Positions 1,730 through 35,434 of a DNA stretch of 35,434 nucleotides are shown here, piece by piece (positions within the stretch are counted from its first letter, which is position 1; the number at the start of each line of letters is the position of its first letter). The stretch comes from a virus: positions 1-35,434 of the IMG/VR virus record IMGVR_UViG_3300030104_000111; one strand, written 5' to 3'. A model generated the notes under the pieces. The model did no database searches. It had not been told where the DNA came from and worked only from the letters and a program-made list of their open reading frames with translations. The translations under genes were made by a program, and so were the position numbers.

Positions 1730-1731
1730 AA

Positions 1732-1920: not shown

Positions 1921-1958
1921 GAGTAATGCTAATTTATATTTATATTACTGTACACACT

Positions 1959-8559: not shown

Positions 8560-8888
8560 GAGTTAATCATCTCCACTATTGGAATAAGATCCTCAATTAT
8601 ATTCTTAATTAATAAATTTCTAGCCTTAACTGAGTCATCTGGTAACACTATCGCCATACCAGTATTACCTGAGAGGTTATTAATAACTCCCAAGATATAA
8701 GTTAGACGTTGCACTTGTGTATGCCATAACGGATTCTCTTTTAATAATTTAAGGAGTTCGATGTCATTAGCACCGATCTCCCTTAAATAATCAGCATCGT
8801 TGTACTGATCTTTATCCATAAACAACCATCTATCATTGATAATGCCATACTCTAAATGAATACGTTTAAATTTTTCATCTAATCCCAT
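8550..8888 (-). CDS. Hypothetical early protein, 112 aa
   Basis: No recognised family. It is mostly helical, with MGLDEKFKRIHLEYGIIND at the start, an acidic segment (MDKDQYNDADYLREIGANDIE), a Trp-containing LKENPLWHTQVQRL, a small glycine turn (NNLSGNTGMAIVLPDD), and a hydrophobic helical end (NLLIKNIIEDLIPIVEMINSCR). The start at 8888 is well supported by GGGAGG seven nt upstream. The gene begins 1 nt after the stop of the 57-aa gene. Early-operon position suggests a role in the first minutes of infection; nothing in the protein says which. Confidence 0.8.
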   Translation of the reverse strand: MGLDEKFKRIHLEYGIINDRWLFMDKDQYNDADYLREIGANDIELLKLLKENPLWHTQVQRLTYILGVINNLSGNTGMAIVLPDDSVKARNLLIKNIIEDLIPIVEMINSCR

Positions 8889-8889
8889 G

Positions 8890-9063
8890 TTAATCCTCCC
8901 ATTTTTGTAGGTTTACTTTTATATCCCAAGTCATTGAACAGTACTTGGTGTTATCCCAGATAGAACCCATTACCGCCTCAACGATAATAGTATTTATCTC
9001 TTCGACTGATTGTTTGCTCATGTGGTGCTTATCAAAGTTGGGAAAGTGTATGAATTGTGCCAT
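8890..9063 (-). CDS. Hypothetical early protein, 57 aa
   Basis: Found by hand translation. It begins MAQFIHFPNFDKHHMSKQSV and ends with NLQKWED; a central acidic helix (EEINTIIVEAV) is followed by a Trp/Tyr-rich segment (GSIWDNTKYCSMTWDIK). Its ATG overlaps the TAA of the upstream gene (TAATG) and its last codons carry the Shine-Dalgarno for the next gene, so it fits the coupled operon exactly. No family recognised, no membrane segment, one internal cysteine. Confidence 0.75.
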   Translation of the reverse strand: MAQFIHFPNFDKHHMSKQSVEEINTIIVEAVMGSIWDNTKYCSMTWDIKVNLQKWED

Positions 9064-9356
9064 TACTTCAACCCCTTCTTTTTATATACAACCGCATAGC
9101 TGCAAGACTCGGCTAGCTCTGGGTTAAGGACGTTCTCGCAGAACTTGTCATACTCTGGTTCTAACCAGCTTTCAAGTTCCTCTTTCTTATCTGTATAGCA
9201 ACTAACCTTTAAGTCGCTACCTCTTCTTACATAATCGAGGTCGATAGCTTGCACTAACTCCTCATAATCGCAGTCGATTGTAAAGATTACCCTATAATTC
9301 CAGCCATGATCTATTTGATCTGTTGAAATTGGATAATCGCATAGTGACATAGCCAT
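9063..9356 (-). CDS. Hypothetical early protein, 97 aa, acidic
   Basis: No recognised family. It begins MAMSLCDYPISTDQIDHGWN, then a beta strand YRVIFTIDCDYEELVQAI, a polar hairpin (RRGSDLKVSCYTDKKEE) and an acidic helical end (LESWLEPEYDKFCENV) before a final AVVYKKKGLK. Alternating strands and helices suggest a small alpha/beta fold. Both borders are TAATG overlaps of one base, typical of this operon. An acidic early protein could be a DNA mimic or an inhibitor of a host enzyme, but no motif supports any specific role. Confidence 0.78.
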   Translation of the reverse strand: MAMSLCDYPISTDQIDHGWNYRVIFTIDCDYEELVQAIDLDYVRRGSDLKVSCYTDKKEELESWLEPEYDKFCENVLNPELAESCSYAVVYKKKGLK

Positions 9357-9544
9357 TAGTTAAGTTCCTCCTGATTTTGTTTGACTAGCTTTGGATCATT
9401 GCCAAAAAATTGACTCATTAAATCATTGCTTATTTTTTCTTGAATACTAGGAGGGCAGTCCGTCCATGTATTGTTTCGAACCATCCAGCCATGATCTAAT
9501 ATGGCTGGGATGTTGTTCTTATCTTTGATGTAGTGCTTAATCAT
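9356..9544 (-). CDS. Hypothetical early protein, 62 aa
   Basis: I chose the ATG at 9544 because it overlaps the upstream stop as ATGA and has AGGTGG just before it; a longer frame from a GTG at 9586 would overlap the neighbour by 46 nt. The protein begins MIKHYIKDKNNIPAILDHGW and contains MVRNNTWTDCPPSIQEKI, then an amphipathic helix and a Gln/Glu/Asn-rich end. The LDHGW piece echoes IDHGWN in the next gene downstream, which may reflect shared ancestry or chance. No family recognised. Confidence 0.72.
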   Translation of the reverse strand: MIKHYIKDKNNIPAILDHGWMVRNNTWTDCPPSIQEKISNDLMSQFFGNDPKLVKQNQEELN

Positions 9545-17607: not shown

Positions 17608-20271
17608 ATGGCATTAATTAGTAGTACTATTCCCAACATGATTAATGGGGTTAGTCAACAGCCTCCAGCATTAAGATTAGCTTCACAGGCAGAATCAGTT
17701 ATAAATTGTTTATCTTCTCCAGTAGAAGGATTAACCAAGCGTCCTCCATTTAATCATATAAAAAAGATATTAAACGGGTCAGCTGGATCTGGACATCCTT
17801 TTGTTGAAGTTGTAGATAGAGATGGAACTATTCAATATTTAATAATGATTAGAGATGGAGCTATAGATGTATTTGATTTGGATGGCAATGCACAAACAAT
17901 CTCAACTCCTAACGGAACTGATTATTTAGACATAACCAATACAGCAGAGCCAGCAGATAAATTTAGAATTGCATCAGTAGCTGACTACACTTTTATATGC
18001 AACAGAGAAAAAATTGTAACGATGGATCACGCTGGTACTTACACGCAATCAGGTACAACAATAACTGTTAATTCTAATGCTCATGGATTAACATCTGGAG
18101 TAAAAATACAAATAGATTTTGAAACTGGTAGTAGTGTTGATGGTACTTACGTTGTAACTGTTGTAAATTCTAATCAGTTTACATTAACTGGAGCTTCAGC
18201 AAGCACTAGCGGAAACTGTAGGTTTAATGAATTATCTCCAGATGTATCAGCAAAAGGTATTGTTTTTATAAAAGCTGCTGATTATGATACGACTTACGAA
18301 GTAAAAATAAAAAGTGCTAATGGAAGCAGTACTTTAGCAACTGCATCGTTTACAACTGCTGCTGTAGGTGGTGCATTACCAAACTCAGGTACAATCGCTA
18401 CTGATTTAAGAAATGACTTAGCAAGTGCCTTGCCTAGCGGTTGGGTATTTACTGTAGATCAATACATTATTAGAATAGAAAGACAAGATGGAACTGATTT
18501 TGTTTTAGAAAGTAGTGATACTAAGTCTGGAACTTTTACAAAAGCAATCAAAGGAGCGATAGATACTATTAGCGACTTACCTACATTATGTGAAGACGGA
18601 TTTGTTGTTAAGGTGCAGGGATCTAAAACTACAAGGCTGGATGATTATTATGTTAAATTTGAAACTTCTAATGGTACAGGTTTTGGTTTTGGTATTTGGA
18701 GAGAAACAGTTGGGCCTTTAGAACCATATAAATTTAATAAATCAACAATGCCTCATGCCTTAGTTCGTGATGCAGCTACTGGTAATTTTTCGTTTGAACA
18801 ATTTGATTGGTCGCCAAGAATTGCTGGGGATTTAGTAACTGCACCTACTCCTACTTTTGTAGGTACTACTATTAATAACATTAATACTTTCAGAAACAGA
18901 TTAATATTTTTAGCTGACGAAAACGTAATAATGAGTGCTGCTGATAGTTATGATAGATTTTTTCCTGAGACAGTACAAACTATTGTTGACAGCGATCCGA
19001 TTGATTTAGTTACAGGCGGTACTGAGATTCATTTTTTAACGTCTAGTTTAGCTTTTGCTAATACCTTATTGCTATTTAGTCGGCATGGTCAGTTTAGGTT
19101 AGACGCTGGAGCAGCCACTATAGGAGGTGCGTTAACACCAAAGACTGCAACCATTACAGCTATAACTACATATGAAACTGAACCAACAGTTGATCCTATT
19201 GCTGTAGGTCGAACTGTTTACTTTTCTGTACCTAAAGGAGAGTTTAGTGGTTTGCGTGATTTTTACCTTCCAGATATAACTGCATCAGTTCCAGTATCAG
19301 AAGAAGTTTCGTCAGCTGTTCCAAGATATATTCCTAAAAATATAACAAGTTTAATTAGTTCTGCATCAGAAGAAACTGTTATAGCTATAAGCAAAGATGA
19401 ACCTAAACGTATTTATTTTTATAAATTCTTTTATGAAGAAGATTCTAAACTACAGTCTTCTTGGTCATTTTGGGAACTTAAAGGAGAAAAAACTGTAATT
19501 GGAGCTTCAATTATAGATAGCGATGTTTTCTTTGTTATTCAATATTCAGATGGAGTTTACCTAGAAAAATGCTCATTACGTCCAGAATCAGTTGATACTG
19601 GTTCTAACTTAGAAATTTTATTAGATAGAAAAGTAGATGAAACTAAATGCCACATTAATGTAATTAATCAAGGTGGTGCTGGTGTTCAATCAGTTATATC
19701 TTTACCTTACCCAACTGCTACTGCTGGAATACAAATTGTTGTTGGTAGAGATGTTTCTGGTAATACATTGCAGCATGGAGAAGTAAAAGTACCAAGTGTT
19801 GAAACTTTATCTGGAGCTACGCAATCTGGTTTTAGCGGTAACGGAACTATGACTGTATTAGGAGATTTAACTAACGCAAAGTTTTTTATAGGAGAAAGAT
19901 ATGACATGACTTACGAATTTAGTACACCATATTTAAAAGAACAACCAACTGGTGGTGGTGTTGCTGTAGTTGCTGGGCCTCGATTACAGATAAGAACTTG
20001 GACATTTGTTTTTGACGACACCTCTGCTTTTAAAATAAAAGTAACTCCAAGAGGTAGAACTCCACAAACTTATCCTTATAATGGGTTTATTGTTGGTCAA
20101 AACCCTCCAGCTTTAGGTCAAGCACCTTTCTTGGCTGGTAAATTCAGAGTGCCAGTAATGGCACATAACAACGATACTAAGGTCGAGATATTAAGCGATA
20201 GTCCACTACCCTGTCGTATCCAATCATCAGAATGGGAAGGATGGCTACACACCAGAGCAAGACGACTATAG
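17608..20271 (+). CDS. Tail tubular protein B (nozzle), T7 gp12-like
   Basis: 887 aa (T7 gp12 is 794). It forms the hexameric nozzle of the short tail, to which fibres attach. Recognised from its N-terminus ISSTIPNMINGVSQQPPALR followed by VEGLTKRPPF, which is diagnostic for this family, later the FRNRLIFLADENVIMSAADS, LFSRHGQFRL and LKGEKTVIGASII segments, and a C-terminal GWLHTRARRL. The extra length relative to T7 includes a region around residues 140-215 with Ser/Thr-rich, beta-type sequence (TVNSNAHGLTSG, DFETGSSVDGTYVVTVVNSN), like an Ig-like or carbohydrate-facing insertion. It overlaps the gp13-like gene by 40 nt. Firm. Confidence 0.94.
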   Translation: MALISSTIPNMINGVSQQPPALRLASQAESVINCLSSPVEGLTKRPPFNHIKKILNGSAGSGHPFVEVVDRDGTIQYLIMIRDGAIDVFDLDGNAQTISTPNGTDYLDITNTAEPADKFRIASVADYTFICNREKIVTMDHAGTYTQSGTTITVNSNAHGLTSGVKIQIDFETGSSVDGTYVVTVVNSNQFTLTGASASTSGNCRFNELSPDVSAKGIVFIKAADYDTTYEVKIKSANGSSTLATASFTTAAVGGALPNSGTIATDLRNDLASALPSGWVFTVDQYIIRIERQDGTDFVLESSDTKSGTFTKAIKGAIDTISDLPTLCEDGFVVKVQGSKTTRLDDYYVKFETSNGTGFGFGIWRETVGPLEPYKFNKSTMPHALVRDAATGNFSFEQFDWSPRIAGDLVTAPTPTFVGTTINNINTFRNRLIFLADENVIMSAADSYDRFFPETVQTIVDSDPIDLVTGGTEIHFLTSSLAFANTLLLFSRHGQFRLDAGAATIGGALTPKTATITAITTYETEPTVDPIAVGRTVYFSVPKGEFSGLRDFYLPDITASVPVSEEVSSAVPRYIPKNITSLISSASEETVIAISKDEPKRIYFYKFFYEEDSKLQSSWSFWELKGEKTVIGASIIDSDVFFVIQYSDGVYLEKCSLRPESVDTGSNLEILLDRKVDETKCHINVINQGGAGVQSVISLPYPTATAGIQIVVGRDVSGNTLQHGEVKVPSVETLSGATQSGFSGNGTMTVLGDLTNAKFFIGERYDMTYEFSTPYLKEQPTGGGVAVVAGPRLQIRTWTFVFDDTSAFKIKVTPRGRTPQTYPYNGFIVGQNPPALGQAPFLAGKFRVPVMAHNNDTKVEILSDSPLPCRIQSSEWEGWLHTRARRL

Positions 20272-20735
20272 GAAAGTTTATTTGGCGAAAGTCAATACTT
20301 TCTGACGTTGTAGAACTTGCAGCAAATATGAGACAAGAAGATAAAGAGGAAGTGTTGGCTTACTCTGGATCATCCCCGCAAGAGGCTTTGTTCTATTGTT
20401 TTTTTAATAGTCAACCCTGCATGACTATGATTGGTAGAAAAGGTAACTTAATGGGAATGTATGGAGTAGTGCCTTGTTCTGCAAAGGTTGGAAGAATATG
20501 GATGTTAGGTCATAAAACTATGACTGATGATTATAAAGATGTAAGAGATTTTTTAAGAAATTCGCCAATAGAATTACAAAAGTTTCATTGCAATTATCCA
20601 CTTTTATATAACTATGTTGATGAAAGAAATACAACTCATATAAAATGGATTAAGTGGATGGGTTTTTCAATCATTAAAAAACACGCTACATTTGGTGCAG
20701 CGGGTCTTCCTTTTTACGAATTTGTAAAGAACTAA
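20232..20735 (+). CDS. Internal virion protein A, T7 gp13-like (GNAT-like)
   Basis: 167 aa (T7 gp13 is 138). In T7 this protein is linked to core assembly and is ejected early. The C-terminal half matches: NYPLLYNYVDERNTTHIKWI, then KWMGFSIIKKHATF and LPFYEFVKN correspond to the T7 segment with NTSHIRFL. The arrangement, with a VLAYSGSSPQEALFY region and GVVPCSAKVGRIWMLG in the core, resembles the acetyltransferase (GNAT) fold, but acetyl-CoA binding is not evident. ATG at 20232 overlaps gp12 by 40 nt; an ATG nine nt later is an alternative. Sits directly before the gp14-like gene. Confidence 0.85.
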   Translation: MGRMATHQSKTTIGKFIWRKSILSDVVELAANMRQEDKEEVLAYSGSSPQEALFYCFFNSQPCMTMIGRKGNLMGMYGVVPCSAKVGRIWMLGHKTMTDDYKDVRDFLRNSPIELQKFHCNYPLLYNYVDERNTTHIKWIKWMGFSIIKKHATFGAAGLPFYEFVKN

Positions 20736-20737
20736 TT

Positions 20738-21412
20738 ATGTGCGGTGCAATTCCTATAGCTGTTATCTCAGGAGTCTTAGGTGTAGCTGGCAGCTATATG
20801 CAATACCAGCAAGCTAAGACAAATGTTGCATATCAAAATGCACAACAAAATTTACAACATCAAAGTAATCTCTTGCAGGCACAGTCGAATCGAATGACTG
20901 AAGAGACAAAGAAGTTGATGAATGAAGATGCTATTGCTCATGCAAATTATTTAGCAGACTTGCAATATGAAAGAGATAGTACAAATATAACTATGAATCA
21001 GATGCAGCAGCAAGAACAAGCAGCACAAGAAAAAACTGCAAGAGGTCGGACATTCTTAGAAAAGAAAGGAGAAGTTGCAGCATTAAGAGGATTAGGAACA
21101 AACGCATGGACTTTGATTGCGGATATAAAACGCACACAAGCAGCAGCAGACTTTATAACGAATCGAAATACAGCGTTTAGTTTACAAGGCACTCAATCGC
21201 AGCGACTTGATGCACAGGCTAATCGGGCTAGTAGGCGAGGTCAAACTGCAACGTACCTTAAGAAAATGGTGCTTGATCCTGTTAAACCTCTGGAAATACC
21301 GAAGCCGAGCTTTGGGCCATATGCTCTTGGCATGGCTAGTTCCGTTGTCGGTGGCTTTAGTACTTATGGTAATTTGTCTGGAGGTGGTATGCCTAATTGG
21401 AGCTTGTCTTAA
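20738..21412 (+). CDS. Internal virion protein B, T7 gp14-like
   Basis: 224 aa (T7 gp14 is 196). It is ejected with the DNA and in T7 forms the outer-membrane pore of the DNA conduit. The N-terminus MCGAIPIAVISGVLGVAGSY matches the T7 MCWAAAIPIAI pattern, followed by a long Gln/Asn-rich helical region (QNLQHQSNLLQAQSNRMTEE, MNQMQQQEQAAQEK) and a Gly-rich end (SSVVGGFSTYGNLSGGGMPN). Two nt separate it from the gp13-like gene and its TAA directly abuts the next ATG. Assignment rests on N-terminal match, composition and synteny. Confidence 0.87.
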   Translation: MCGAIPIAVISGVLGVAGSYMQYQQAKTNVAYQNAQQNLQHQSNLLQAQSNRMTEETKKLMNEDAIAHANYLADLQYERDSTNITMNQMQQQEQAAQEKTARGRTFLEKKGEVAALRGLGTNAWTLIADIKRTQAAADFITNRNTAFSLQGTQSQRLDAQANRASRRGQTATYLKKMVLDPVKPLEIPKPSFGPYALGMASSVVGGFSTYGNLSGGGMPNWSLS

Positions 21413-23899
21413 ATGGTATCCGTAAAAGGTTTAAGTCTTGGTAAAAACGAAGACCCTAAAAAAAGAGGATCTGGACAAGCCAAGCAAATATCTCTTGATG
21501 GATTAACTGTTAGTCCTTCAACTGGTAGTACAAAAATAGAAGAACCAAAAATATTAAATGCTAGATGGTATGGAGAGACTGCTGTAACTCCAGCAGCGTT
21601 AACTAAAATTCCACAATTAGAATTACCAAGCGTAGCTGGTGTAATAGAAAATGCTACTCCACAAGATGCTGGTGCATATGCTGATGCTTTTAGTGATTTT
21701 GCTAATACTGTAAATAATTTTGGCTCAGCAATGCTGAAAAGAAATGAAAAGATACGACAAGAAGATGAAGCTATAGCATTTAATATTATTAACAGGTTTG
21801 GAGAAGGCGATAGCCCTGTTAAAAAACTAGAAACCTACATAAGCAAAATAGAAAAAGATACAGAACGATTAAAAAATAAAGAAGTTTTAAATGAAAATGA
21901 TAAGCAACAAATATTAGATAATGAAAAATTAATTAGACAAATAAATAAAAGAAGAAATCTTGGTCAAGTTTTATTATCTCAAGACAGAGAAAGGGTAATT
22001 ATTAATAGAGCAATGACATGGCCTAGTCATTCAAAAACTGTTCTTGTTCCTGATACAAATTTAGATGGAGAGATTACTGACAACAATGGAGAATTAAAAT
22101 CAATACCAGTTACTGACTTAGATCCTAAAGACGCTAGATATATAAAAGCTTTTAATGATTATGTTTATGGAGGTGTTCAACTTAGTGCTTTTGAATTAAA
22201 AAATGTAGAGCCTAAAGTTTCAAATGCATTGTATAACTCAATGCAAACACAAGATAAAGTTTTTAATGATAAGCAAAAAGATAAGATACTTAACTCGTCA
22301 ATGAACAACATAACATTGACGTTAAAGCAATTAAAAAATAATGGAAATACTTTTGATGTAGCAAATTTTATAACAGGATTAAATAATGATATTGATTTTT
22401 TAAAAAACACTCATATGTTCTCAAGGCAAGAACAACAACAATTTATATCAAATATAATTGCACAAACTCAATATTATTTAGGAGAAGCTGGTTTTCATAA
22501 CACTAGAGAAATTATAGAAACTATGTTTTTAGGAAAAAATTTAGGAAAGGAAGATCAAGTATTTCCGTTAATGATTGGGCCTCTGGAGGAAAGAGTTAGT
22601 AAAAATGGCACGTTAAATAAAAAACTAAGGTTAGTAGATCTTATTGGCGGAGAAGCACAGTTAAATTTTCTTATTGGACAGACAGAACAAAAAAATTTAC
22701 AGGCAAATGATAGAAATGAAAAGTCACAAATAGCTAGCTACGAAGGGTCTTTTGAAAAAATACTAAGAGCACCAAATGAAGGAGGTAAAGGTACTTTGTT
22801 TACAGATATAATTATGGGTGCGACTGATAATATACAAGGTAATGTTTATGTACAGACAGCTATTACAGCATTAAGCAAAGAAAGAGATACGTTAATACAA
22901 GCAGCAAATGGAGATCAAGATAAAATTTTTGCAATAAATAAAGCTTATACTGCAAAGCTTGCCGATATAAAATTTAATATTGGCTCACTTGAGTATGAAT
23001 CAGAAAAAAATAGTCTTGTATTAAGAAGTTATGATTTATTAACTGGTAGTATGACCAATGCAGAAGAAGAACTCTTTAAAGAAGATTTAGAATTATTTAA
23101 AGATCACTATAAAGGATTACCAAAATTAACAGAAGATTTAAGAGTCGTTAACAGCAACTTAGTTAATTCTGATAAGCAAGATTTTAGAAGTATAACCAAA
23201 GTTGGAAATGATTTAATTAAAAGTTTGTTCAATGATTATGCTGACAAAGAAGAAATATCAAATGAAAATTTTGATAGAAAAACTGTTTTTAATTCTGCCC
23301 TGCCTTCTATACAAAAAGAAGTTAATGAAATTATTGAGCAAGCTAATGAAGCTTTCCCTAACGATATAGAGCAACGAAATAATTATGTATTAAGTGAAAT
23401 AGACAAAAGATGGAAAGCTGGACGTTTTGTAGAAGGTAGAAAAAAACCTAATACATCTCCTTTATTTGGTAGCGGAGATTATAAAAACACACTTAAAAAA
23501 CTTACAAGAGAAACTGGTTATAACAAAAAAAATGGTGTAGATGCTAATGGAATATTGACAGATATAACAACTTTTAGTTCATATATTAACTCTCCAGATC
23601 AGCCTATTTTTACAAAAAAGGCTTTAGTCGGTAATGGTTTTACTTCAAATAAATTTAGCGGGCTACTTGCATCTTGGATGTCAGGAGAAGAAATGCCAGA
23701 AGGTTGGACTATGATTGAAAAGAATTTATATAAAATTAGAGGTCGAAATGGAACTTATACTATTGATGATTTTTTAATAGATCAATTAACAAAAGCTGGC
23801 ATACCTATGAATAAAATTCCTGTCGAGGAAATAAGAGAAATGAAGAATATGAATCAAGAGCAAAGAAGAAAACATTGGGAGGAAGTATTAACTAAATAA
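21413..23899 (+). CDS. Internal virion protein C, T7 gp15-like
   Basis: 828 aa (T7 gp15 is 747). In T7 it forms the hub of the internal core and the periplasmic tunnel after ejection. Here it is recognised from synteny and size more than motifs: a low-complexity basic N-terminus (KGLSLGKNEDPKKRG), then a long helical Glu/Lys/Asn-rich body with AYADAFSDFANTVNNFGSAM, a coiled-coil-like stretch around 148-185 (EKDTERLKNKEVLNENDKQQ) and EEIREMKNMNQEQRRKHWEE at the end. No enzyme motif is visible. It is followed by a 55-bp gap containing a sigma70-like promoter that separates it from the giant gene. Confidence 0.83.
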   Translation: MVSVKGLSLGKNEDPKKRGSGQAKQISLDGLTVSPSTGSTKIEEPKILNARWYGETAVTPAALTKIPQLELPSVAGVIENATPQDAGAYADAFSDFANTVNNFGSAMLKRNEKIRQEDEAIAFNIINRFGEGDSPVKKLETYISKIEKDTERLKNKEVLNENDKQQILDNEKLIRQINKRRNLGQVLLSQDRERVIINRAMTWPSHSKTVLVPDTNLDGEITDNNGELKSIPVTDLDPKDARYIKAFNDYVYGGVQLSAFELKNVEPKVSNALYNSMQTQDKVFNDKQKDKILNSSMNNITLTLKQLKNNGNTFDVANFITGLNNDIDFLKNTHMFSRQEQQQFISNIIAQTQYYLGEAGFHNTREIIETMFLGKNLGKEDQVFPLMIGPLEERVSKNGTLNKKLRLVDLIGGEAQLNFLIGQTEQKNLQANDRNEKSQIASYEGSFEKILRAPNEGGKGTLFTDIIMGATDNIQGNVYVQTAITALSKERDTLIQAANGDQDKIFAINKAYTAKLADIKFNIGSLEYESEKNSLVLRSYDLLTGSMTNAEEELFKEDLELFKDHYKGLPKLTEDLRVVNSNLVNSDKQDFRSITKVGNDLIKSLFNDYADKEEISNENFDRKTVFNSALPSIQKEVNEIIEQANEAFPNDIEQRNNYVLSEIDKRWKAGRFVEGRKKPNTSPLFGSGDYKNTLKKLTRETGYNKKNGVDANGILTDITTFSSYINSPDQPIFTKKALVGNGFTSNKFSGLLASWMSGEEMPEGWTMIEKNLYKIRGRNGTYTIDDFLIDQLTKAGIPMNKIPVEEIREMKNMNQEQRRKHWEEVLTK

Positions 23900-23954: not shown

Positions 23955-26900
23955 ATGGACGTAGAAAACTCAGTCAATACCGAAGTAGTAGAAGAAGAGG
24001 AGGAGGAAGAAGAAAGCCTGTTTAATTTTGGCAGCTATAAGCCTAATTACGATACAACTATAGAGGTCGATCAGAATAGAAACAAATCTATTTTTAATGA
24101 AGAAGATAATGATTTTAATGAAGAGATTACAAACGTAGAATCAGACGAAACAATTATTACTAGAGAAACAAACAAGGAACAGTATTTAAAAGGTTTGGCA
24201 GAAGGAAAAATAGACACAAAAACACATAGCAATATTTTAAATATTGAATATGCTCCAGAACATCTTAGAGGAAAGATGCATTGGAGAAATAGTGCTGGAG
24301 ATTTTTTAAGAATGATCGACAGGGCTGGCATGGGTGTTACGCAAAATTTATTTAATACAGGACAGAATCTTTTAAGAGGAGATATGCCCGCTGTTGTAGC
24401 AGAAACTTTAACAGGCGATCCAATAAGTGCATCAATTATAGGTTTCAAAGCTTTAAAAAAGGGTATAGAAAATAGAAGTTTTACTGACTTTTTTGAAGGA
24501 TTAGGCTACGGAGAAGACGGATTAAGCATGAGTCTTCTTGACGCTGCTGCATCATCTAAAGGACAAGTTAATAATTTTGAACAGTTTGATGCTATTTCTC
24601 CAGAAGACCAAGCAAGAGGTGTTGACTATGGGCTTTTTGGATTACCTTCTTTAACCGAACTAAGTGGTGGCTATCCAGAGCAAAATACTGGCAGATGGCT
24701 TGCTGATGGTACAACTAATTTTTTAGGAAATAGCATACCTTTTTTTGCTATAGCAGCGGGCATTATGGCAGAACCTACTCCAGCTGGAGAAGTGGTCGCA
24801 GTTAAAACAGGGCTTGCAAAGTTAAAAGCTAGTAGTCCAGCATTTAGAAATTTTTATAATCTTATTTCAAGAGATCTTTTAGGCAAAACAAGATATGGAC
24901 AAGGATTTAAAACAGCTACTAAGTTTTTAGTCAAAGAAGGTATAAAAGGTGCTGGTGCTGGTGCTATTGCAGAAACATTTGTAGGAGATCCATATGCTGA
25001 TTATGGTTTAGATGCTATTCTTCCTGACTTTTTAGATTACGAAAATCGTGTAGATGATGGTTTTTTTAAAGCAAAGCTAAAGTCAATGATTGTATCAGAA
25101 TTTATGCTTGGCCCATTATTTGGAATAGGTATGGGTGGTATTGGTGTTGGAACTAAACCTATAAGAGAGCCAGTAGCTAGAGTTTTTAGTGGTTTAGTAA
25201 AAGGAGATGGAAAAGTTTTACAAGATGAAACAGCAAAATTTATTAAGAATGTAAAGAGTAAAGCAAACAGATTTAAAGGGCCAAACAGACATAAATTACA
25301 ATTTGAATTTAACAAAAGAAATTTAGACACATTTTTAGATGATGCTGAAAAACTTTTAGTTGACCCTATTGCAGAATATTTAGCTGACACACAAATTGCT
25401 AAAAAATTAGCTGAAAGTTTAGGTTTTACTTATAGAGATATAGACGAAATAAAACTAGAGATAGATGACATTAAAGCTAAAAGTAACGAAAGACAAGGTA
25501 TTTCTGTCACAAGAGACACTCAGCTACAACTTGAAAAGGACAAGATAAAAGATGCTGAAAGAAAATCTAATGTTGAAGGCCGAGAAAAAACAAAAATATA
25601 TACTGAGCTTGCTGACGAAAAAGCTAAAGTTCAAGAGCTTGAAGCAAAGCTAAAAGAAGCAGAAGAGAAAGCAGAAAAACAAAAAAATGCATTTGTAAAA
25701 TCAATTAATAATTCTGCTAAGTCGGAAACAAAATTAGTAGAAGCAATGACATTAAATAACCAAGTACGTCCAGATCAAAGTAAGACAGCATACGACAAGA
25801 TTGGTGTAACAAGTGCTAATAGACCTAAGACACCGCTAGAAGTATTCCAAATGAATCCTAATGATCTTGTAATACGTCCAGACATTTTTCAGATAAAAGA
25901 ATCAGGTAAGTTTAATAAGTCTGGAGTAAGCGGATCACTAGCAGATCAAACAGAATTTGATCCTAAGTTTGCTGGAGTCGTAAGTGTATGGAGAGATGAT
26001 ACTGGAGAACTTGGGCCAGTAGGTAAGTTATATGTAATTGATGGTCATAACAGAATAGATTTAGCAAAGAAATCTGGCATTGAGTCTGTCAATGTACAAA
26101 CAATAGAAGCACCAAACTCAAAGGCAGCACAAACACAAGCTGCAATTATTAATATAAATTCTTTTAATTACGACCAAAAAGGAGCTATAGCTGTAACTGA
26201 TGTAGCCAAGATCTTAAGAAACGAAGAGTCTCCTAGAGCTTTAGCTGAGATGGGAATGAGTCTAAAGCAAAGAATAGTTATCGAAGGTATGCAGCTGGCA
26301 AGATTACCCGATCATCTTTTTGATAAATTACTTAGAGGAGATATTGGTTTACAAAAAGGTTTAGCATATGGCTCTCAACCTATTTCGTTTACTGCTATTA
26401 GCGATGTTTTTAAAGCTATAGATAAAAGCAATCCTTCGATAGAAAAGATTAAACAAGCTGTATTAATGGCATCTGAGTCTGTCGATATGCCTCCAGAAGA
26501 TGGTGTTATTCCTTTGTTTGCTGACTATTTAAAAACAACAAACGCAAAACAATTATTAGAAGTTAGAGCAGAAATCTCTGCACAATTAAAGAAAACACTT
26601 ATCAGATTAAAAGCTGTCGGTACTAAAGATAAAAAAGCTGGAGTAGAAACTGTAGCTGGTAACAAGATAAACCTAGAAAACACACAAAATGCTTTAGTCG
26701 AAGCTTCTAAAACAAATGATTTGTTTAATGCTGTTGCTGCATCTGGAGGAGAAACAACACAAATAATAAAAGAATTAGCTGCACAGGTTAAAGGACGTAA
26801 TGTTAAAAAATTAGTTGAAGCTAATTTAGAAAGAATACAAGATGCATTGCAGCTGGAAGAAGCACCTTTATTTAAGAGATCTGAAGCTGTAGATATTATG

Positions 26901-29900
26901 CAAGAGATAGACAAGAAGAAGATGGATGAATTAAAGCAAATAGAAAACGAAACTCAACAAGTGACGTTTAAGCAAGAAGATATAGAAGTAATGAAAGAAG
27001 AGCCAAAATTTAAAGAAGAGTTTGAGCAGCTAGGAGAAACACAACAAGAAAGTGTAACTAAACAATTAAAAAACAAAGGTAAAGTTACTACTAACCCAAG
27101 TAATATAACTGGCAAAACCTTGCCTCCTTTAATAACAAATCCAAAGGCAAGAGTATTCCCAGAATATTTTGAAGGATCAGATCAAAATTTATTATATAGT
27201 GCAGTAGATAGCAGCGGTAAAGTAGCAAACTTAAGTAATTTTGAACTACAAGATGCAGTAACAAGAACAGAAAGATTTAAATTAACGACAAGGCAAATAA
27301 AAAATATACAAGCTAAAAAAGCAAAGTATGACAAGGCAAATGCAGTATATGAAGAATTAGAAAAACAAATTAATGATTTACTTACAGGTAAAGGAAAGCA
27401 AGGAAAACTTTTTGAAACAGATCCTAATGCTGCTGATACAGAGTTAGACAGATTAATGGCAGCGAGAGAGGCAGCAGATAAAGAGCGAGCAAAATTTGTA
27501 GATAGCAGGCTTGAATATCACTCTAAGCATATGGCATTGGTTAATTCTTTAAAAGGTAGAGAGCTAGAGCCAGTAGTTAATAATATGAGAGAAGAGTCTA
27601 TTGCAAACAGAGAAGAAAAGAAACGACTTAAAGAAGTACAAGAGTTAAAAGAAGCGATTGATTTTAAAAAAGCAAGAGGAGATTATAAAACTAAAAAAGG
27701 TTATAACCTTGATGAAGCACATAAGATTGATAACTTTACGTTTACTCAATATGGAGTAGAGCTTGAAGGTTTGGTTGATAGTCAAGGTAAAGGCTATAAT
27801 CGTTTTTACTTTGGCAAACCTTCTCCTCGATATAACTCTGAGGTTATAGATTTTGTAAGTGATTTAGATATAGCTATATATACAGTTGCTAAACAGATAG
27901 CAAATGGATTATCTAAAAAAAGTAAATCTCATTATAAATATGTGGATTTGTTAAATGATTTAGGTTTAACAAACAACCAAATAATGACTAGATATAAAGA
28001 AATAATTGAAGAATTAAAAGCTGGTAATCTTACTATCGAACCTTCAGAAAATTATTTCTCTAGTAAATTACTTCGAGTTATTTCAGATCTTGATACTGAG
28101 ATGAAAGATATAGACGGAAGATATAGTTACGAAATAGATCCAGAAGCTATTATCAGTCAAAGAGTAAATAAGGCTAAAAAGGATTTAGATGCTAAGACTA
28201 ACCAAGAATTTAGAGATGTTAATAATCCTAAGAAGCCTACAGAAGATGAACTTTTAGAACCAAGAGAAGGCGACTATTATGAAATTATTGAGGATCAAGG
28301 AGGAGATCTAGGATCTGAAGAGATTTATTTAGCTTTAGCTGGTTATCAAAGATCTCAGATACAAGGCTTAATGCAAGAGATAGAAAAAATATCTGGTATA
28401 GATTTTAAATTAGTTTCTGATCCTATTGTCGGTGTAGCTGGGCCAAAAGCGGCAAAGGAATATGGTGTTCCTGTTGGTACAAAAATGCCAGCAAAAGGTT
28501 TTTATAGATCTGGGGAAGATCCTGTAAAAGATTTAATAGTCGTATCAATGGTACATGGACAAGACTTTGCATCGTTTGGTGCTCTTACTGAAACTGCATA
28601 CCACGAAGCCTTCCATAGATTATTTAACAGATACTTTACTAAGCAAGAAAAGGAATTACTTAAGGCTGCATTGCCACAGTTAAGAGAGCTTGCTGCTCTT
28701 ACAAAACCAAAAATGCACGACAAAATCTTTGGTTTAAATGGTAAAAAGCAACTAGGTATGGAAGAAGTTGTATCAATAGCAGCATCAGGTTACAAATCAG
28801 CTAAAGAAGTTTATGAAAAGAAAATTGGTAAATGGGGTAAAGTTTTTGACAAGATTGAACAAATAGTTGCAAGAGTTAAAAACTTCTTACAAGGAAAAGG
28901 ATTTCAAACATGGGAAGATTTATTTGATAATTCTTTCTCAGGAAAAATACAGTCAAGAGGATTAGCTGCACAAGAAGGAGTTATAAAAGATAGTCCAATA
29001 GAAACTACTATGTTTGAAACAGATCCTGTTGAACTAAATAATTTATTTAAAGATAATTTAGAAGCTTTAACTGATGGCAGTATTACTCTCGAAGAGATGA
29101 TGTCTAATGTTTTACGTCCTTTGGTAAATAGAAAGTGGGAAACAAAAGGTTCAAAATATTTTATACCGACTACAAATACAGAATTTATTGCAGCAAATAA
29201 AGCAATAAACCAAGCTATGGACAAGACAGTTGAAGCTTTGATGACACCTAATGCAGAGTTCCCAGACATACCAGCAGTTAAGTTAAGCGAGTTAAATAAG
29301 ATGGCAATGCAATTAATTGATGATGTCGATGGCAATGTAGATGAAGTTATAAAAATATTTAGACAGGCTACTAAGGGCGATATGTTGGCTATGAATGATT
29401 TATCTGCCTTTGCTGCTATACGTCTATTAAGAGATGGTACTACTGATATGTATGCTGTCGCTGCTAAAAATTATGAATTAGATCCTTCTCCACAAAACGC
29501 ACAATTCTTAGTTGCAACATTTGAAAATTCAGCAAAATTAAATACTGCTTACGCTACTTGGGGAAGAGCATCTGGACAAAGGTTGCAAATGATGGGTAGA
29601 GAAGTTGACTTTAATGGCGAGCAAATAACTATAAACGTAATGAACGCAGAGCAGAATATAACAATGAGAGGAGAATCTGGATCTGTACAGGATGCAATGA
29701 ACAATGGATTAAAAGAACAAGATGAAGGTTTAGGAAATGGTGCTTACTTTACATCTGAAATAAAGCCTAATTCTGTAGCTGGAGATGACGTACTTACTGG
29801 TAATTTAAAAAATACTAATATTGCTGACTTAGTAGAAGCGGGTGTCGGTTTAAAACAAATACTACAAGACAGAGGAGTTAATGTTAATTTCAATAAAACA

Positions 29901-32900
29901 TTAAACAAAACACAAAAGAAAGCAATTAATGAGTATGTTGCAGAACTAGGAGTAGATGGTATTAGATTAAAAGGATCAGACTTAGGACTTGATGGAGATA
30001 TTATATTTATTCCAAACATAGATAAGGCTAATAAACTTATTGGTTCTAAGGTTGAAATAACTCCAGAAGCAGAACGTCCAGTTGGATTAAACAGAGAAAC
30101 TTTTGAGTCAAGTTTAGCTCAAGGAACTAACATACTTAAAAAGGTTTTAGATGAAGATACCTATGAAAGTATTTTTAGTGGAGAGCCTAACGACAAAGCA
30201 AGAGAAGTTTTACAACTATTAGCAGAAGTAAATCCATACCTTAACGACAAAGTTAATGGTACAAGGATTATGAGGCATTTAAATAAGACTTTTGAGCAAT
30301 ACCCAAGAGGGTCAATGACGCAACAAAACCTTGTTTCAGCATTTAGAAACTGCATATTTTTAGGAGTAAAAACATTTATGAGAGTTGCTGTTGGTAATAA
30401 TGTAAGAGCAATTTTACTACCTATGCAAAAAAATGCTGGTGCAAACATTGGAAGACTAAGCGGTAATCTTAATGATTACGAAAGAACTGCTATGAATGTA
30501 AGAGAGCAGTTACAGGGTCTGTTTGGACATAGAGGATATTTAAGATCTCAGGCACATTTAATGCAAGCTATCTACTTAGCAATGCAATCATTCAAGCATA
30601 ATACAAATTTTGGAAACATTGGTAAGGGTCAGTTTGAGGGAGGAAAGTTTGGTGGAAATAACGGAATGAAATTATTTAAGGTCGAAAACCAAGCTGACTT
30701 ACCTTTTGATTATCAACCACATAAAACACAATTACTTAAAGAACAACCTAAAGGTAATGAGTACTGGTTAAATCCAGACAATAATGGAATGGCTTTATTC
30801 TTGCATAGAGTGAAAAGTACCTTTGGCAACTTTAGTAGCAGAATGTTTGGCAGTTTAGATACTTTAATAACTACTGGTACAGCTATAGCTCAAGAAGAAA
30901 TAAGACATATGGAAATGATTTTGATGGATATGTATTCAAGAGGAATAGATATAACATCAAAAAATGCATTAGATAAAGCAAGCTTAGAAGCAAAAGAATT
31001 AACTAGAAAATCTATGTTAGACGTTGAGATGGCTAATGGAGATGTTGTTAAAGGTGGTTTCTTTAGCTCAGAAAACATGAGACAGACTACAGAATATCTA
31101 AGTTTTACAGACGACATCAATATAAAGCGAAACAAAAGAACTAGAGAGTACGCAATGAGAAGAGCACAGGAGCAAGGCATTACAGATCCTATGGAGCAAA
31201 TGGAATTTGTTAATCAATACCTAAAACTTCCTGATGCTGTTACAAACAAAGAAGGAATGAATCAAGCTAATGCAATGCTGTCTGGTGGAGCTAGAGAATC
31301 ACAGCCTATAGGTGCATACGTTGATGTTAAGAATCCAAATCAAATAAGCAGCTTACCAACAAACCTTACAAATTTACCCGCAAATATAGTTGGTGGAATT
31401 ACAGATCGCCTTCCAATAACTGGTGCTATTTTTCCTGTTAACAGAACTCCTAACAATATTATTAAAGGTGTTTTAAGAATGTTGCCAGTAGCTAATGGAA
31501 TGGTAGATAGTTACTGGAGAGATATAAATTCTGAAGATTTATTTGTGAGAGAAAATGCAATAGGAGAAGTAGTTACTGGTATGACTTTTGCTGGAATGGG
31601 AACTACTCTTCTTGCATCTGGAGCAATAGATGTACAGGCAGGGTATGGATTTAACAGAAAGAAAAGACAAATGTATATAGATCAAAAACGTCCAGCATGG
31701 AGCATTAGATTTAAAAAATTTGATGGTACTTATAGCGAGTGGTTTAGCTTGGAAGCTTTTGATACATTTGGAACAATACTAGGAATTGCAGCCAACTTTA
31801 GAGAAAACTTAAATACTATGCCTATTGAACAGTTTGTAAAACCAAAAGATTTAAACTATGGAAAGATAGACAGGAATGACGCTCTTAGTGCAGAACAAAG
31901 ATCAGAAGCGTATGAAATAAACCAAGACGTTGCAATTCTAGCCTCTGCTCATGCAATTAGGCTTGCTAAAGCTGTTATGTACACAGCGAAAGATACAGCG
32001 TTACAACAGATAGATAAAGGTTTATTTAAAAGCTTAAACGATATACAAAGATTAATGGCTGACTTTTTACAAGGAGATGCTGTTATGAATAATTATGTAG
32101 TCGGTAGTCGAGGCCGACTTTCTGATTTTACAAGAAGGACTATGTTTGGATATGTACCGCAGATATTAAGAGATGTTCGTGTTGGTATAGATAACAAGAG
32201 GAGAGTAGCTCCTAACAGTAGAAGTGAAAATCCAGTTTGGGCTTTTGTTGAAAACTTTTTCTATCAACTAGGAACACAATTACCAGTTACATCTTTAGGC
32301 TATACGATTGATATAGATGAAATAACTGGACAACCAAAGACTTACGCTACTTCTTATAATTGGGAATCTATAGATAATCCTATTCATAGGGCATTGCTAT
32401 CCACCTTAAATCCATTAGAAGTATTTAAACCAACTCAAGAAAAAGATTACGGAATAGCTGGTGTTATTTATAATGAGTTAAATAGATTACATGGCAAAGG
32501 TGCATACCCTCGTTTTATTGGTAGAAATTTCTTGAATACAGCTACTGGGCAAAAATTAGATGATGTACAATTTAATAGAGTAAAACAAATTTTTGCAACT
32601 GAAGTGAAGCTAGATATTGTAGGTGCTGGAATACCAATGACATTTTCTGAAGCATTGCATTATTTGATAACACAAAATGATAATTACCTTTTAGCAAGAG
32701 ACATAAATCCTAGTAAAATCGGAACTTCTAAAACACAAGCAAAAGGAAATACAGGAGAAAATTTCCAATTCCCAGAAAGAATATCAGACAAAAGGATGCT
32801 TACAAAATTAAAATTAATTATGAATGTAGCTAAAGAATACAAAAAAGTAACTAAACAAAAATATCTTAATGAGATTGGAGAGGGTGGTAATGGAAGTAAG

Positions 32901-33023
32901 CAATTAGATCTATCACTTAATGAATACGAATCAAGAAAACTTGCAACTCTTAACAGAGATAGTGAGCCAGTTTATGGACTAGGTGTTAATCTTAATGAAT
33001 GGAGGGAAATTATTAATTCTTAG
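23955..33023 (+). CDS. Giant internal virion protein D (gp16 position) with polyvalent-protein domains, 3022 aa
   Basis: More than twice T7 gp16 (1318 aa). Order of recognisable parts: an acidic N-terminus (Glu run about 14-21); a hydrophobic stretch near 250-300; a coiled coil about 515-590; a ParB-like domain about 620-745 with DLVIRPDIF (637-645) and IDGHNR (D696-R700); a zinc-metallopeptidase segment with HEAFH (1550-1554) and a downstream GMEEV (E1603, E1604) as possible third ligand; an ADP-ribosyltransferase-like segment about 1890-2030 with GLGNGAYFT (1925-1933) and DGDIIFI (2013-2019); and a C-terminal third with a NRTPNNII box (2496-2503). Such assortments are known as polyvalent proteins, delivered into hosts with DNA. 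No transglycosylase motif of T7 gp16 was seen. Synteny supports an ejected virion protein; the biochemical roles are inferred. Confidence 0.88.
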   Translation: MDVENSVNTEVVEEEEEEEESLFNFGSYKPNYDTTIEVDQNRNKSIFNEEDNDFNEEITNVESDETIITRETNKEQYLKGLAEGKIDTKTHSNILNIEYAPEHLRGKMHWRNSAGDFLRMIDRAGMGVTQNLFNTGQNLLRGDMPAVVAETLTGDPISASIIGFKALKKGIENRSFTDFFEGLGYGEDGLSMSLLDAAASSKGQVNNFEQFDAISPEDQARGVDYGLFGLPSLTELSGGYPEQNTGRWLADGTTNFLGNSIPFFAIAAGIMAEPTPAGEVVAVKTGLAKLKASSPAFRNFYNLISRDLLGKTRYGQGFKTATKFLVKEGIKGAGAGAIAETFVGDPYADYGLDAILPDFLDYENRVDDGFFKAKLKSMIVSEFMLGPLFGIGMGGIGVGTKPIREPVARVFSGLVKGDGKVLQDETAKFIKNVKSKANRFKGPNRHKLQFEFNKRNLDTFLDDAEKLLVDPIAEYLADTQIAKKLAESLGFTYRDIDEIKLEIDDIKAKSNERQGISVTRDTQLQLEKDKIKDAERKSNVEGREKTKIYTELADEKAKVQELEAKLKEAEEKAEKQKNAFVKSINNSAKSETKLVEAMTLNNQVRPDQSKTAYDKIGVTSANRPKTPLEVFQMNPNDLVIRPDIFQIKESGKFNKSGVSGSLADQTEFDPKFAGVVSVWRDDTGELGPVGKLYVIDGHNRIDLAKKSGIESVNVQTIEAPNSKAAQTQAAIININSFNYDQKGAIAVTDVAKILRNEESPRALAEMGMSLKQRIVIEGMQLARLPDHLFDKLLRGDIGLQKGLAYGSQPISFTAISDVFKAIDKSNPSIEKIKQAVLMASESVDMPPEDGVIPLFADYLKTTNAKQLLEVRAEISAQLKKTLIRLKAVGTKDKKAGVETVAGNKINLENTQNALVEASKTNDLFNAVAASGGETTQIIKELAAQVKGRNVKKLVEANLERIQDALQLEEAPLFKRSEAVDIMQEIDKKKMDELKQIENETQQVTFKQEDIEVMKEEPKFKEEFEQLGETQQESVTKQLKNKGKVTTNPSNITGKTLPPLITNPKARVFPEYFEGSDQNLLYSAVDSSGKVANLSNFELQDAVTRTERFKLTTRQIKNIQAKKAKYDKANAVYEELEKQINDLLTGKGKQGKLFETDPNAADTELDRLMAAREAADKERAKFVDSRLEYHSKHMALVNSLKGRELEPVVNNMREESIANREEKKRLKEVQELKEAIDFKKARGDYKTKKGYNLDEAHKIDNFTFTQYGVELEGLVDSQGKGYNRFYFGKPSPRYNSEVIDFVSDLDIAIYTVAKQIANGLSKKSKSHYKYVDLLNDLGLTNNQIMTRYKEIIEELKAGNLTIEPSENYFSSKLLRVISDLDTEMKDIDGRYSYEIDPEAIISQRVNKAKKDLDAKTNQEFRDVNNPKKPTEDELLEPREGDYYEIIEDQGGDLGSEEIYLALAGYQRSQIQGLMQEIEKISGIDFKLVSDPIVGVAGPKAAKEYGVPVGTKMPAKGFYRSGEDPVKDLIVVSMVHGQDFASFGALTETAYHEAFHRLFNRYFTKQEKELLKAALPQLRELAALTKPKMHDKIFGLNGKKQLGMEEVVSIAASGYKSAKEVYEKKIGKWGKVFDKIEQIVARVKNFLQGKGFQTWEDLFDNSFSGKIQSRGLAAQEGVIKDSPIETTMFETDPVELNNLFKDNLEALTDGSITLEEMMSNVLRPLVNRKWETKGSKYFIPTTNTEFIAANKAINQAMDKTVEALMTPNAEFPDIPAVKLSELNKMAMQLIDDVDGNVDEVIKIFRQATKGDMLAMNDLSAFAAIRLLRDGTTDMYAVAAKNYELDPSPQNAQFLVATFENSAKLNTAYATWGRASGQRLQMMGREVDFNGEQITINVMNAEQNITMRGESGSVQDAMNNGLKEQDEGLGNGAYFTSEIKPNSVAGDDVLTGNLKNTNIADLVEAGVGLKQILQDRGVNVNFNKTLNKTQKKAINEYVAELGVDGIRLKGSDLGLDGDIIFIPNIDKANKLIGSKVEITPEAERPVGLNRETFESSLAQGTNILKKVLDEDTYESIFSGEPNDKAREVLQLLAEVNPYLNDKVNGTRIMRHLNKTFEQYPRGSMTQQNLVSAFRNCIFLGVKTFMRVAVGNNVRAILLPMQKNAGANIGRLSGNLNDYERTAMNVREQLQGLFGHRGYLRSQAHLMQAIYLAMQSFKHNTNFGNIGKGQFEGGKFGGNNGMKLFKVENQADLPFDYQPHKTQLLKEQPKGNEYWLNPDNNGMALFLHRVKSTFGNFSSRMFGSLDTLITTGTAIAQEEIRHMEMILMDMYSRGIDITSKNALDKASLEAKELTRKSMLDVEMANGDVVKGGFFSSENMRQTTEYLSFTDDINIKRNKRTREYAMRRAQEQGITDPMEQMEFVNQYLKLPDAVTNKEGMNQANAMLSGGARESQPIGAYVDVKNPNQISSLPTNLTNLPANIVGGITDRLPITGAIFPVNRTPNNIIKGVLRMLPVANGMVDSYWRDINSEDLFVRENAIGEVVTGMTFAGMGTTLLASGAIDVQAGYGFNRKKRQMYIDQKRPAWSIRFKKFDGTYSEWFSLEAFDTFGTILGIAANFRENLNTMPIEQFVKPKDLNYGKIDRNDALSAEQRSEAYEINQDVAILASAHAIRLAKAVMYTAKDTALQQIDKGLFKSLNDIQRLMADFLQGDAVMNNYVVGSRGRLSDFTRRTMFGYVPQILRDVRVGIDNKRRVAPNSRSENPVWAFVENFFYQLGTQLPVTSLGYTIDIDEITGQPKTYATSYNWESIDNPIHRALLSTLNPLEVFKPTQEKDYGIAGVIYNELNRLHGKGAYPRFIGRNFLNTATGQKLDDVQFNRVKQIFATEVKLDIVGAGIPMTFSEALHYLITQNDNYLLARDINPSKIGTSKTQAKGNTGENFQFPERISDKRMLTKLKLIMNVAKEYKKVTKQKYLNEIGEGGNGSKQLDLSLNEYESRKLATLNRDSEPVYGLGVNLNEWREIINS

Positions 33024-33025
33024 CT

Positions 33026-35434
33026 ATGCCTTTTGCTCAATTTACTGCTACTGGTAATGGATCAACCAAGCAATTTACCATACCTTTTCCATATGTAAAA
33101 AAGGATCATATTGTTGTTGCACTTAATAATGTAGCTAATACTAATTTTACTTTTATAAATGATACGACTATTGAATTTAATACTATTAGTTCAGCTACAT
33201 CTACTCAAGAAACATCTGGAGCACCTAAGAATGGAGTAGGAATTGAAATTACAAGAGATACTCCATTAACAAATGCATTAGTTGATTTTGTTGATGGCTC
33301 TACTTTAACTGCTGGCGACCTTGATACTGCTGTATTACAGCTACTATACGGAATACAAGAAGCAAAAGATGAAGCTGCTCTTGGTATTCAACGTACACCT
33401 CAAGGACAAGATGCAAAAAATCAACCGATAATTAATGTTTCAGATCCTACCAATGCTCAAGATGCAGTAACTAAAGCATTTTTAGAAAGAGTCGGTAGTA
33501 TTACATCGACACAAATTGCAGACGGAAGTATTGTTAATGCTGATGTAAATGCAAGTGCAGCTATAGCTGGAACTAAAATATCTCCTGATTTTGGTAGTCA
33601 GAATATTGCTACATCTGGAACTGTTGATGGCAGGGATGTATCTGCTGATGGTACAAAATTAGATACTGTAGAAACTGGAGCTACTGCCGATCAAACAAAT
33701 GCAGAAATAAAAACAGCTTATGAAGCAAATTCTAATACAAATTCTTTTACCGATGCTTTACTTGCAAAGCTAAACTCTGTTGAAGTAAATGCCACAACAG
33801 ATCAAACAATAGCAGAAATCAAAAGTCTTATAGCTGGCAGTCCTTTAGATGCTAGTCACCTTGCAGCAGACTCAGTAACAAGTTCTGAACTAGCAGCAAA
33901 TTCAGTCACTACTTCTAAAATAGCAGATGCAGAACTAACAACACTAGCTGGTATGCAGTCTGGTACAGCTTCTAAGTTAGCTGACAGTACAGCTTTGACT
34001 GCTGATATTGCCGATCTAAACCAAATAGATGGCATGGCAAAGCAAACAACTATAACTGATGATGATACAAAGTTTCCTACCTCTGGTGCGGTTGTAGATT
34101 TTGTAGCTGCACAGATCGCACCTATTGGTGGATTAGAAGTTATAGCTAATGAAGATAGCTTCCCTACTTCACAACCTTCATCTGGTGTTGTTATCAGTAT
34201 TTCAGACATAGAAGGTCTTGTAGTCAATGGAAGTGGTGTTGCTACAAATGCAAGAACAACAGGAAACGGATCAGATAACGTAACTATTAATGGCTTTCCT
34301 TCTAGCTTACAAAGCAAGACAATGGCTGCTGGTCTTGGTCTTATGGTCAGTTCTACAGGCTCTAGTCAAACTTATACTTACCATAAGCTATTAGCAAAAG
34401 AAGCTGATGTAGAGCAACTTAGTAATGATATAAATGACTTTGCAGCTAGGTATAGAGTGGGTTCTTCTAACCCTACAACTGATCTTGATGCTGGTGATCT
34501 GTTCTTTAATACGTCTACTCAGAAATTATTAGTTTATAACTCAACCAATAGTGCGTGGGAAGAAGCACAGAGTATAGGTAACTTCTTTATCTCTACATTT
34601 AGTGAGTCGTTTGACGGAAGTAGAACAGATTTTACTGTAAGTAATGCACCAGCAAATGCTCAACAGATAATCCTTAGTATTAATGGTGTTGTGCAGAAAC
34701 CTAATAGTGGAACATCTACACCTTCAGAAGGTTTTGCTTTATCAGGCAGTACTGTAAAACTATCTTCTGCCCCTGCTAGTGGATCAGATGTATTCATAGT
34801 GGTAATGGGTTCTACAGTAAATATTGGAACTCCAAGTAACAACACAGTAACAAGTGCGATCTTACAAAACGGATCAGTCATAACCGCTAAGTTGGCAGAT
34901 CAAGCGGTCACTTTAGATAAGTTATTACATGGTGATGCAAGTAGTAACGGAAAGTTTTTAAGAGCTAATAATGGTGCAGACCCTACGTTTGAAAGTGTTA
35001 TTACTGATCTGGTAAATGACACATCACCACAGTTAGGCGGTAATTTAGATAGTAATGGTAACAATATAAAACTAGGAGATAGTAGTTCATCTAATGATGA
35101 TCGTTTGCAAATTGGTGCTGATACTTTTGGAGATTTAGAGCTTTACCATGATGGTACAAACTCTTATATAGATAATAAAACTGGTGATTTTTTCATAAGA
35201 GGTGTTGATGAAAAGTTCTTATACATACAAGCTAAATCTGGTGAAAATTCTATTATTTGTAAAGATGACGGAGCAGTAGAGCTTTATTACGATGGCGGTT
35301 TAAAGTTAGGTACTCGATCTAATGGGGTTAATATTTTTGGACTTGCTGAAGTGTATGGCACTATTAGACCTAATGCAGATAATTCACATGATTTAGGTAC
35401 TACATCACTTCGTTGGAGAAACATCTACACCAAT
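33026..35434 (+). CDS. Tail fibre protein, T7 gp17-like N-terminus, C-terminus cut by window edge
   Basis: Translated by hand; open for 803 codons to the right edge. The first about 140 residues match the T7 tail-fibre attachment domain: MPFAQFTATGNGSTKQFTIP, FPYVKKDHIVVAL, TPLTNALVDFVDGSTL, and DLDTAVLQLLYGIQEAKDEA. The rest is Ser/Thr/Asn/Ala-rich with repeats: an ATxDQTxAEIK unit occurs twice, and IADGSI / LAADSV / LAANSV type units recur. At the end are DLELYHDGTNSYI (704-716) and VELYYDGG (751-758), a repeat type that I recall from marine phage fibres. The C-terminal receptor-binding tip is outside the window. It starts two nt after the giant gene stop. Confidence 0.92.
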   Translation, partial: MPFAQFTATGNGSTKQFTIPFPYVKKDHIVVALNNVANTNFTFINDTTIEFNTISSATSTQETSGAPKNGVGIEITRDTPLTNALVDFVDGSTLTAGDLDTAVLQLLYGIQEAKDEAALGIQRTPQGQDAKNQPIINVSDPTNAQDAVTKAFLERVGSITSTQIADGSIVNADVNASAAIAGTKISPDFGSQNIATSGTVDGRDVSADGTKLDTVETGATADQTNAEIKTAYEANSNTNSFTDALLAKLNSVEVNATTDQTIAEIKSLIAGSPLDASHLAADSVTSSELAANSVTTSKIADAELTTLAGMQSGTASKLADSTALTADIADLNQIDGMAKQTTITDDDTKFPTSGAVVDFVAAQIAPIGGLEVIANEDSFPTSQPSSGVVISISDIEGLVVNGSGVATNARTTGNGSDNVTINGFPSSLQSKTMAAGLGLMVSSTGSSQTYTYHKLLAKEADVEQLSNDINDFAARYRVGSSNPTTDLDAGDLFFNTSTQKLLVYNSTNSAWEEAQSIGNFFISTFSESFDGSRTDFTVSNAPANAQQIILSINGVVQKPNSGTSTPSEGFALSGSTVKLSSAPASGSDVFIVVMGSTVNIGTPSNNTVTSAILQNGSVITAKLADQAVTLDKLLHGDASSNGKFLRANNGADPTFESVITDLVNDTSPQLGGNLDSNGNNIKLGDSSSSNDDRLQIGADTFGDLELYHDGTNSYIDNKTGDFFIRGVDEKFLYIQAKSGENSIICKDDGAVELYYDGGLKLGTRSNGVNIFGLAEVYGTIRPNADNSHDLGTTSLRWRNIYTN

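Follow-up and report, generated by a model that had tools for sequence, protein, structure and literature searches.

In phage T7, the internal virion proteins gp14, gp15 and gp16 are ejected from the particle and build a channel across the cell envelope. The gp16 gene of Escherichia coli T7 is flanked by gp14/gp15 on its 5' side and by the fibre gene on its 3' side. Marine T7-like phages have a protein in the same place, annotated as gp16 or internal virion protein D (e.g. Syn5 gp45, P-SSP7 gp16 and the proteins of HTVC011P and ProddE). Phage polyvalent proteins are long late-gene products that hold ParB, zincin metallopeptidase (MPTase) and ART domains in one chain (Iyer et al. 2017, PMC5512222); the terms 'T7-like' and 'internal virion' are absent from the main text of that paper. 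For the P-SCSP1-group (MPP-C) cyanophages, the authors of the P-SCSP1u genome speculated on internal virion proteins from size and position and could not annotate them (PMC9860041). The text of the P-SCSP1u cryo-EM paper mentions no internal core, and we found no virion proteomics for these phages in the literature searched.

Here we describe a gene in which these two kinds of protein appear to be joined. The window (the whole stretch of DNA that was analysed, 35,434 nucleotides) is part of a 36.4-kb IMG/VR record. Its terminase and that of the P-SCSP1 cyanophages share ∼80% identity, so it is likely that the phage infects picocyanobacteria. Among isolates, only 17 P-SCSP1 phages have a long match to the window; scans of IMG/VR added >100 further loci, some being overlapping parts of the same contig. 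The late genes are arranged in the T7-like order, with gp11 (16997) and gp12 (17608) preceding a gp13-like gene, gp14, a gene of gp15 size, an ORF of 3022 codons and the tail fibre gene:

20232..20735, plus strand: gp13-position gene (phrog_308 internal virion protein; weak match to Pfam T7_Gp13)
20738..21412, plus strand: gp14 homologue (Pfam T7_gp14, 2.9e-15)
21413..23899, plus strand: gp15-position gene, with weak similarity (E 2e-8) to PSCSP1u_00022, the P-SCSP1u gene at the equivalent place
23955..33023, plus strand: predicted fused gp16/polyvalent-type protein, 3022 aa; intact in independent contigs, dN/dS 0.11
33026..35434, plus strand: tail fibre (gp17), continuing past the window end (T7 tail-fibre N-terminal domain, Pfam Phage_T7_tail, 3.2e-29)

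The portal, exonuclease, primase-helicase and RNA polymerase genes (2-7780, minus strand) are opposite in strand to the late genes (11768-35434, plus strand), and this arrangement of the portal-to-RNA polymerase block relative to the capsid, tail and gp16 genes differs from that of P-SCSP1u. The same gene order recurs in two independent contigs (portal at 1236-2651 on the minus strand with capsid at 17058 on the plus strand; portal at 2437-3852 on the minus strand with capsid at 18152 on the plus strand), so this is a real inversion in the window clade.

The initial annotation of this DNA had pointed out an uninterrupted 9-kb frame with three motifs in order, and both the frame (23955..33023, plus strand, ATG start) and the motif positions are confirmed: IDGHNR at residues 695-700, HEAFH at 1550-1554 and GLGNGAYFT at 1925-1933. 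When the protein was shuffled 2000 times, HExxH arose in 1.9% of the shuffles, [DN]GH[NH]R in 0.05% and GxG[AV]YF[TS] in 0.1%; given this rarity, and because each motif lies within a segment conserved among distant homologues, the three are not due to chance. The full-length frame is also uninterrupted in five further IMG/VR contigs (3019-3026 aa), with lengths of 2978-3019 aa in more distant contigs. The dN/dS ratio is ∼0.11 overall among close relatives and <0.32 for every module in every pair tested, indicating that purifying selection acts on all modules, the ART-fold segment included. A Pfam scan of the 3022-aa protein gave no significant match (RecX_HTH3 fell below the threshold and was judged spurious). 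The protein has the following segments:

24222..25394, plus strand: N-terminal segment (aa 90-480), with HMM matches confined to the window's own clade and one further locus (L034), and no known family
25848..26858, plus strand: ParB-like domain (aa 632-968) with a [DN]GHxR motif (C-terminal region of phrog_21, 1.9e-21)
26037..26054, plus strand: IDGHNR motif (aa 695-700), G-H-x-R invariant in homologues
28314..29009, plus strand: putative zincin-like (HExxH...E) metallopeptidase domain (aa 1454-1685), from invariant residues, an AF2 model and Foldseek
28602..28616, plus strand: HEAFH (aa 1550-1554), with invariant H1550, E1551 and H1554
28764..28766, plus strand: E1604, candidate third metal ligand, invariant in the alignment
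29502..30071, plus strand: ART-fold segment (aa 1850-2039), probably catalytically degenerate, assigned through matches of homologues (L140, L093, L095) to PARP/ART-PolyVal
30075..32582, plus strand: C-terminal gp16 core (aa 2041-2876, ∼840 residues), homologous to the marine T7-like internal virion protein D

That this protein occupies the gp16 position, as first annotated, is borne out by the T7-like gene order and by true gp16 homology of the C-terminal core, which is present in nearly all relatives except the giant proteins that share only the ParB domain. With a divergent relative (L097) as the query, tblastn picked up genes labelled internal virion protein D, and HMMs built from the window family only match gp16 of HTVC011P, ProddE, S-TIP28, CRP-125, Syn5 (gp45) and P-SSP7 with E-values from 1e-24 to 6e-9 (database size set to 50,000). 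Alignment of the core with marine gp16 by hhalign gave a probability of 100 and an E-value of 3.4e-41 over 628 columns; the reversed-profile control gave no match (probability 0.1). The matched region is the C-terminal half of the marine T7-like gp16 proteins, which are 1192-1415 aa long, as against 3022 aa here (a length comparison that the initial annotation had proposed). Neither Pfam nor the family HMMs found ParB, MPTase or ART in these marine proteins, while the positive control, T7 gp16, gave its SLT domain. No similarity between the window core and gp16 of E. coli T7 was detectable, and Pfam found no SLT transglycosylase in the window protein or 15 relatives (T7 gp16 control, 1.7e-31). 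By these comparisons the 3022-aa protein is a gp16 homologue by descent within the marine T7-like group, and the equivalent of T7 gp16 by position only. Core relatives were absent from prophages in a scan of genome contigs, and the core profile had no match in the PDB. LPD38 was considered as a relative of the core and set aside, as hhalign of the core against the LPD38 region of a giant phage protein (L053) gave no match. Pfam also found no transglycosylase in gp16 of Syn5, P-SSP7, HTVC011P, ProddE, S-TIP28 and CRP-125 (L167-L169, L171-L173), unlike T7 gp16.

The ParB-like segment proposed earlier also holds up: G-H-x-R is found in 24 out of 24 non-redundant sequences (as are R700 and D/N696), homologues of the domain match ParB families, and the domain is shared with polyvalent-type proteins. 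Against the PDB, the best match of its profile was Noc, at a marginal 0.0058 (ParB, 0.26). The giant phage proteins that share the domain combine it with GGDEF and LPD38 (L053, 645-7706), RelA/SpoT (L063, 7271-18961) or an M90-type metallopeptidase (L059, 9233-14062). A conserved arginine and an Asp/Asn at the end of strand 2, two features of DdrB-like ParB domains, are present, with strand placement taken from the motif; hhalign against the single P1 DdrB sequence gave a probability of 0.5, and we do not class the domain as DdrB-like. We also rejected the label 'portal protein' that comes with phrog_21: the match is limited to profile positions 1007-1332, which coincide with the ParB-like region, and the genuine portal gene is at 2-1417. 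As phrog_21 matches gp16-position proteins solely through this C-terminal region, moving the portal label to them would be an error.

In the metallo-domain, only four columns are invariant among 37 homologues (H1550, E1551, H1554 and E1604), and HExxH with a downstream glutamate is the gluzincin signature. The AF2 model of residues 1454-1685 (pTM 0.65) places the motif in a helix after several beta-strands. The Foldseek search of a viral library with the metallo-domain returned a 'large polyvalent protein' from a Nohivirus as its top match (1.5e-4), and the phage of that match encodes a protein that is also a sequence homologue by our HMMs. The zinc-metallopeptidase reading of the initial annotation thus stands as to the HExxH...E domain and its polyvalent kinship; it is weakened by the nearest solved structure in a Foldseek search of the PDB, which is a non-protease HExxH enzyme, an oxygenase, with an insignificant score (E 0.034, TM 0.29). 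Metal binding is likely, and proteolysis plausible, given these four residues. A longer model (residues 1440-2045) was poor (pLDDT 58.7) and its PDB structure search empty, and the sequence profile of the MPTase-ART pair had no match in the PDB. The M90/ATLF-type peptidase of L059 was compared as a possible relative of the window MPTase and gave no match.

The window ART segment itself has no Pfam match, and its assignment comes through homologues, for which the ART fold is firm: the segment of L140 passes the Pfam PARP cut-off (31.7 versus 26.7 bits), L093 matches ART-PolyVal (1.3e-3) and L095 is also among the PARP/ART-PolyVal matches. These homologues have the strand-1 His (LYHGT, LHHGT), whereas in the window clade this column is R/K/T/V (R1905 in the window protein), i.e. 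a non-conserved residue in six of the six lineages examined. The strand-2 Tyr (Y1931, 21 out of 21) and the strand-5 acidic residue (D2015, at least 90% in the alignment) are kept. Since the strand-1 catalytic His is not conserved in the clade, ADP-ribosylation in the window phage is doubtful. The earlier proposal of an ART-like segment is therefore upheld as to fold and not as to catalysis: the segment is evidently ART-derived, probably a pseudo-ART (a noncatalytic remnant or binding module) in the window phage, and is not classed as an active Tox-ART-HYD2.

The domains vary among relatives. ORFs >2000 aa have the architectures ParB-MP-ART-CT (26), NT-ParB-MP-ART-CT (12), ParB-MP-CT (10), MP-ART-CT (four) and ParB-CT (one). 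One relative (L148) has the core without any recognised cassette domain, L163 and L150 keep ParB and core and have no MPTase, and in L163 an ART (DUF3990, 2.3e-5; 7802-9379) sits in the MPTase slot between ParB and core. In Nohivirus AP013547.1 (L175, 816-8710), ParB-MPTase is a separate gene of 1484 aa directly upstream of a gp16-size gene of 1145 aa; we did not adopt the latter as a core homologue (hhalign probability 11-16). Variable combinations of this kind would be expected if an effector cassette had been joined to a structural core. Several unrelated enzymatic-type domains (ParB-like, HExxH and ART-fold, all by homology) lie in one late-gene polypeptide, and the architecture first proposed, with gp16 turned into a polyvalent carrier, is well supported by the core homology together with the cassette domains.

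We consider it fairly probable that the 3022-aa product belongs to the gp16-type internal core (ejection) proteins, that its N-terminal two thirds form a polyvalent cassette and that this cassette enters the cell along with the DNA; self-cleavage by the HExxH domain is less certain. By analogy with T7, the core would pack on the portal together with gp14 and gp15, be ejected early and help to form the trans-envelope channel, and the cassette, being fused to it, would travel into the cell with the core and the DNA (packaging and ejection of the 3022-aa chain are predicted here from gp16 homology). The HExxH domain may cut the chain, either before packaging or after entry; the ParB-like domain, once released, could then target DNA or nucleotides as the phage enters. 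In the window phage, the ART-fold segment is probably a noncatalytic remnant or binding module. More tentatively, and as a possibility to which we give less than even weight, gp16 may serve across a widespread T7-like lineage as a delivery chassis, with a constant core and an exchangeable effector cassette (ParB, HExxH peptidase and ART, alone or combined) that is injected alongside the genome and cleaves itself inside the host.

The HExxH domain might instead serve in maturation only, as a protease that trims its own protein (or gp14/gp15) while the head is being assembled; nothing in the chain would then act as an enzyme in the host. Such a role has a suggested precedent in P1 DdrB (PMC5512222), and as the domain lies between ParB and core, a cut would separate cassette from core; L163 and L150, however, retain ParB and core without an MPTase, so that not every relative needs a cut by this domain, and we regard this explanation as unlikely. 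Alternatively, the cassette domains could be degenerate, or co-opted as scaffold or spacer of a very long core/channel protein. The loss of the ART His in the window clade, the loss and swapping of cassette domains while the core persists, and the modest AF2 confidence are all consistent with a structural role, but HExxH with E1604 and G-H-x-R are invariant down to ∼17-25% identity. Such conservation is difficult to account for unless there are a metal site and a nucleotide/DNA site, and it makes a purely structural cassette quite unlikely. An active anti-defence package that includes ADP-ribosylation of host targets agrees with the domain set of the polyvalent proteins (PMC5512222), but with the strand-1 His replaced throughout the window clade and no target or defence link known, it is improbable for this phage.

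Delivery of a polyvalent cassette by a gp16-type core, if correct, assigns a function class to the largest gene in the P-SCSP1 (MPP-C) cyanophages; this clade reportedly contributes nearly half of the cyanopodovirus reads from the surface ocean (PMC9860041). It also makes P-SCSP1u on Prochlorococcus MED4 a cultured system for testing polyvalent-protein delivery, one suited to the purpose since its carrier can be recognised as an ejection protein and is not a protein of unknown packaging.

Among known systems, the closest is PSCSP1u_00023 (2563 aa, ULF50148.1), a protein labelled hypothetical that has the same position and the same ParB - MPTase - ART - core order as the window protein, with 27% identity over 1450-2900 and 29% over 468-972; it differs in a shorter, unrelated N-terminus and in a Lys at the strand-1 ART position. 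The marine gp16 proteins share core and gene position and differ in their length and in having no ParB, MPTase or ART. E. coli T7 gp16 shares the position, and differs in its own N-terminal SLT transglycosylase, which is missing from the window protein, and in sequence. The 1484-aa protein of Nohivirus MedDCM-OCT-S31-C1 (BAQ94395.1) has homologues of ParB (2e-66) and MPTase (1.5e-24) in the window order, but in an unfused gene upstream of the gp16-position gene, and without ART. The polyvalent proteins of PMC5512222 share the domain set, which in the window is fused to a T7-like gp16 core. We did not find such a fusion in the literature searched (open-licence papers only). Polyvalent proteins with these domains were thus known already (PMC5512222), and what appears to be new, within the open-licence literature, is their fusion to a gp16 core.
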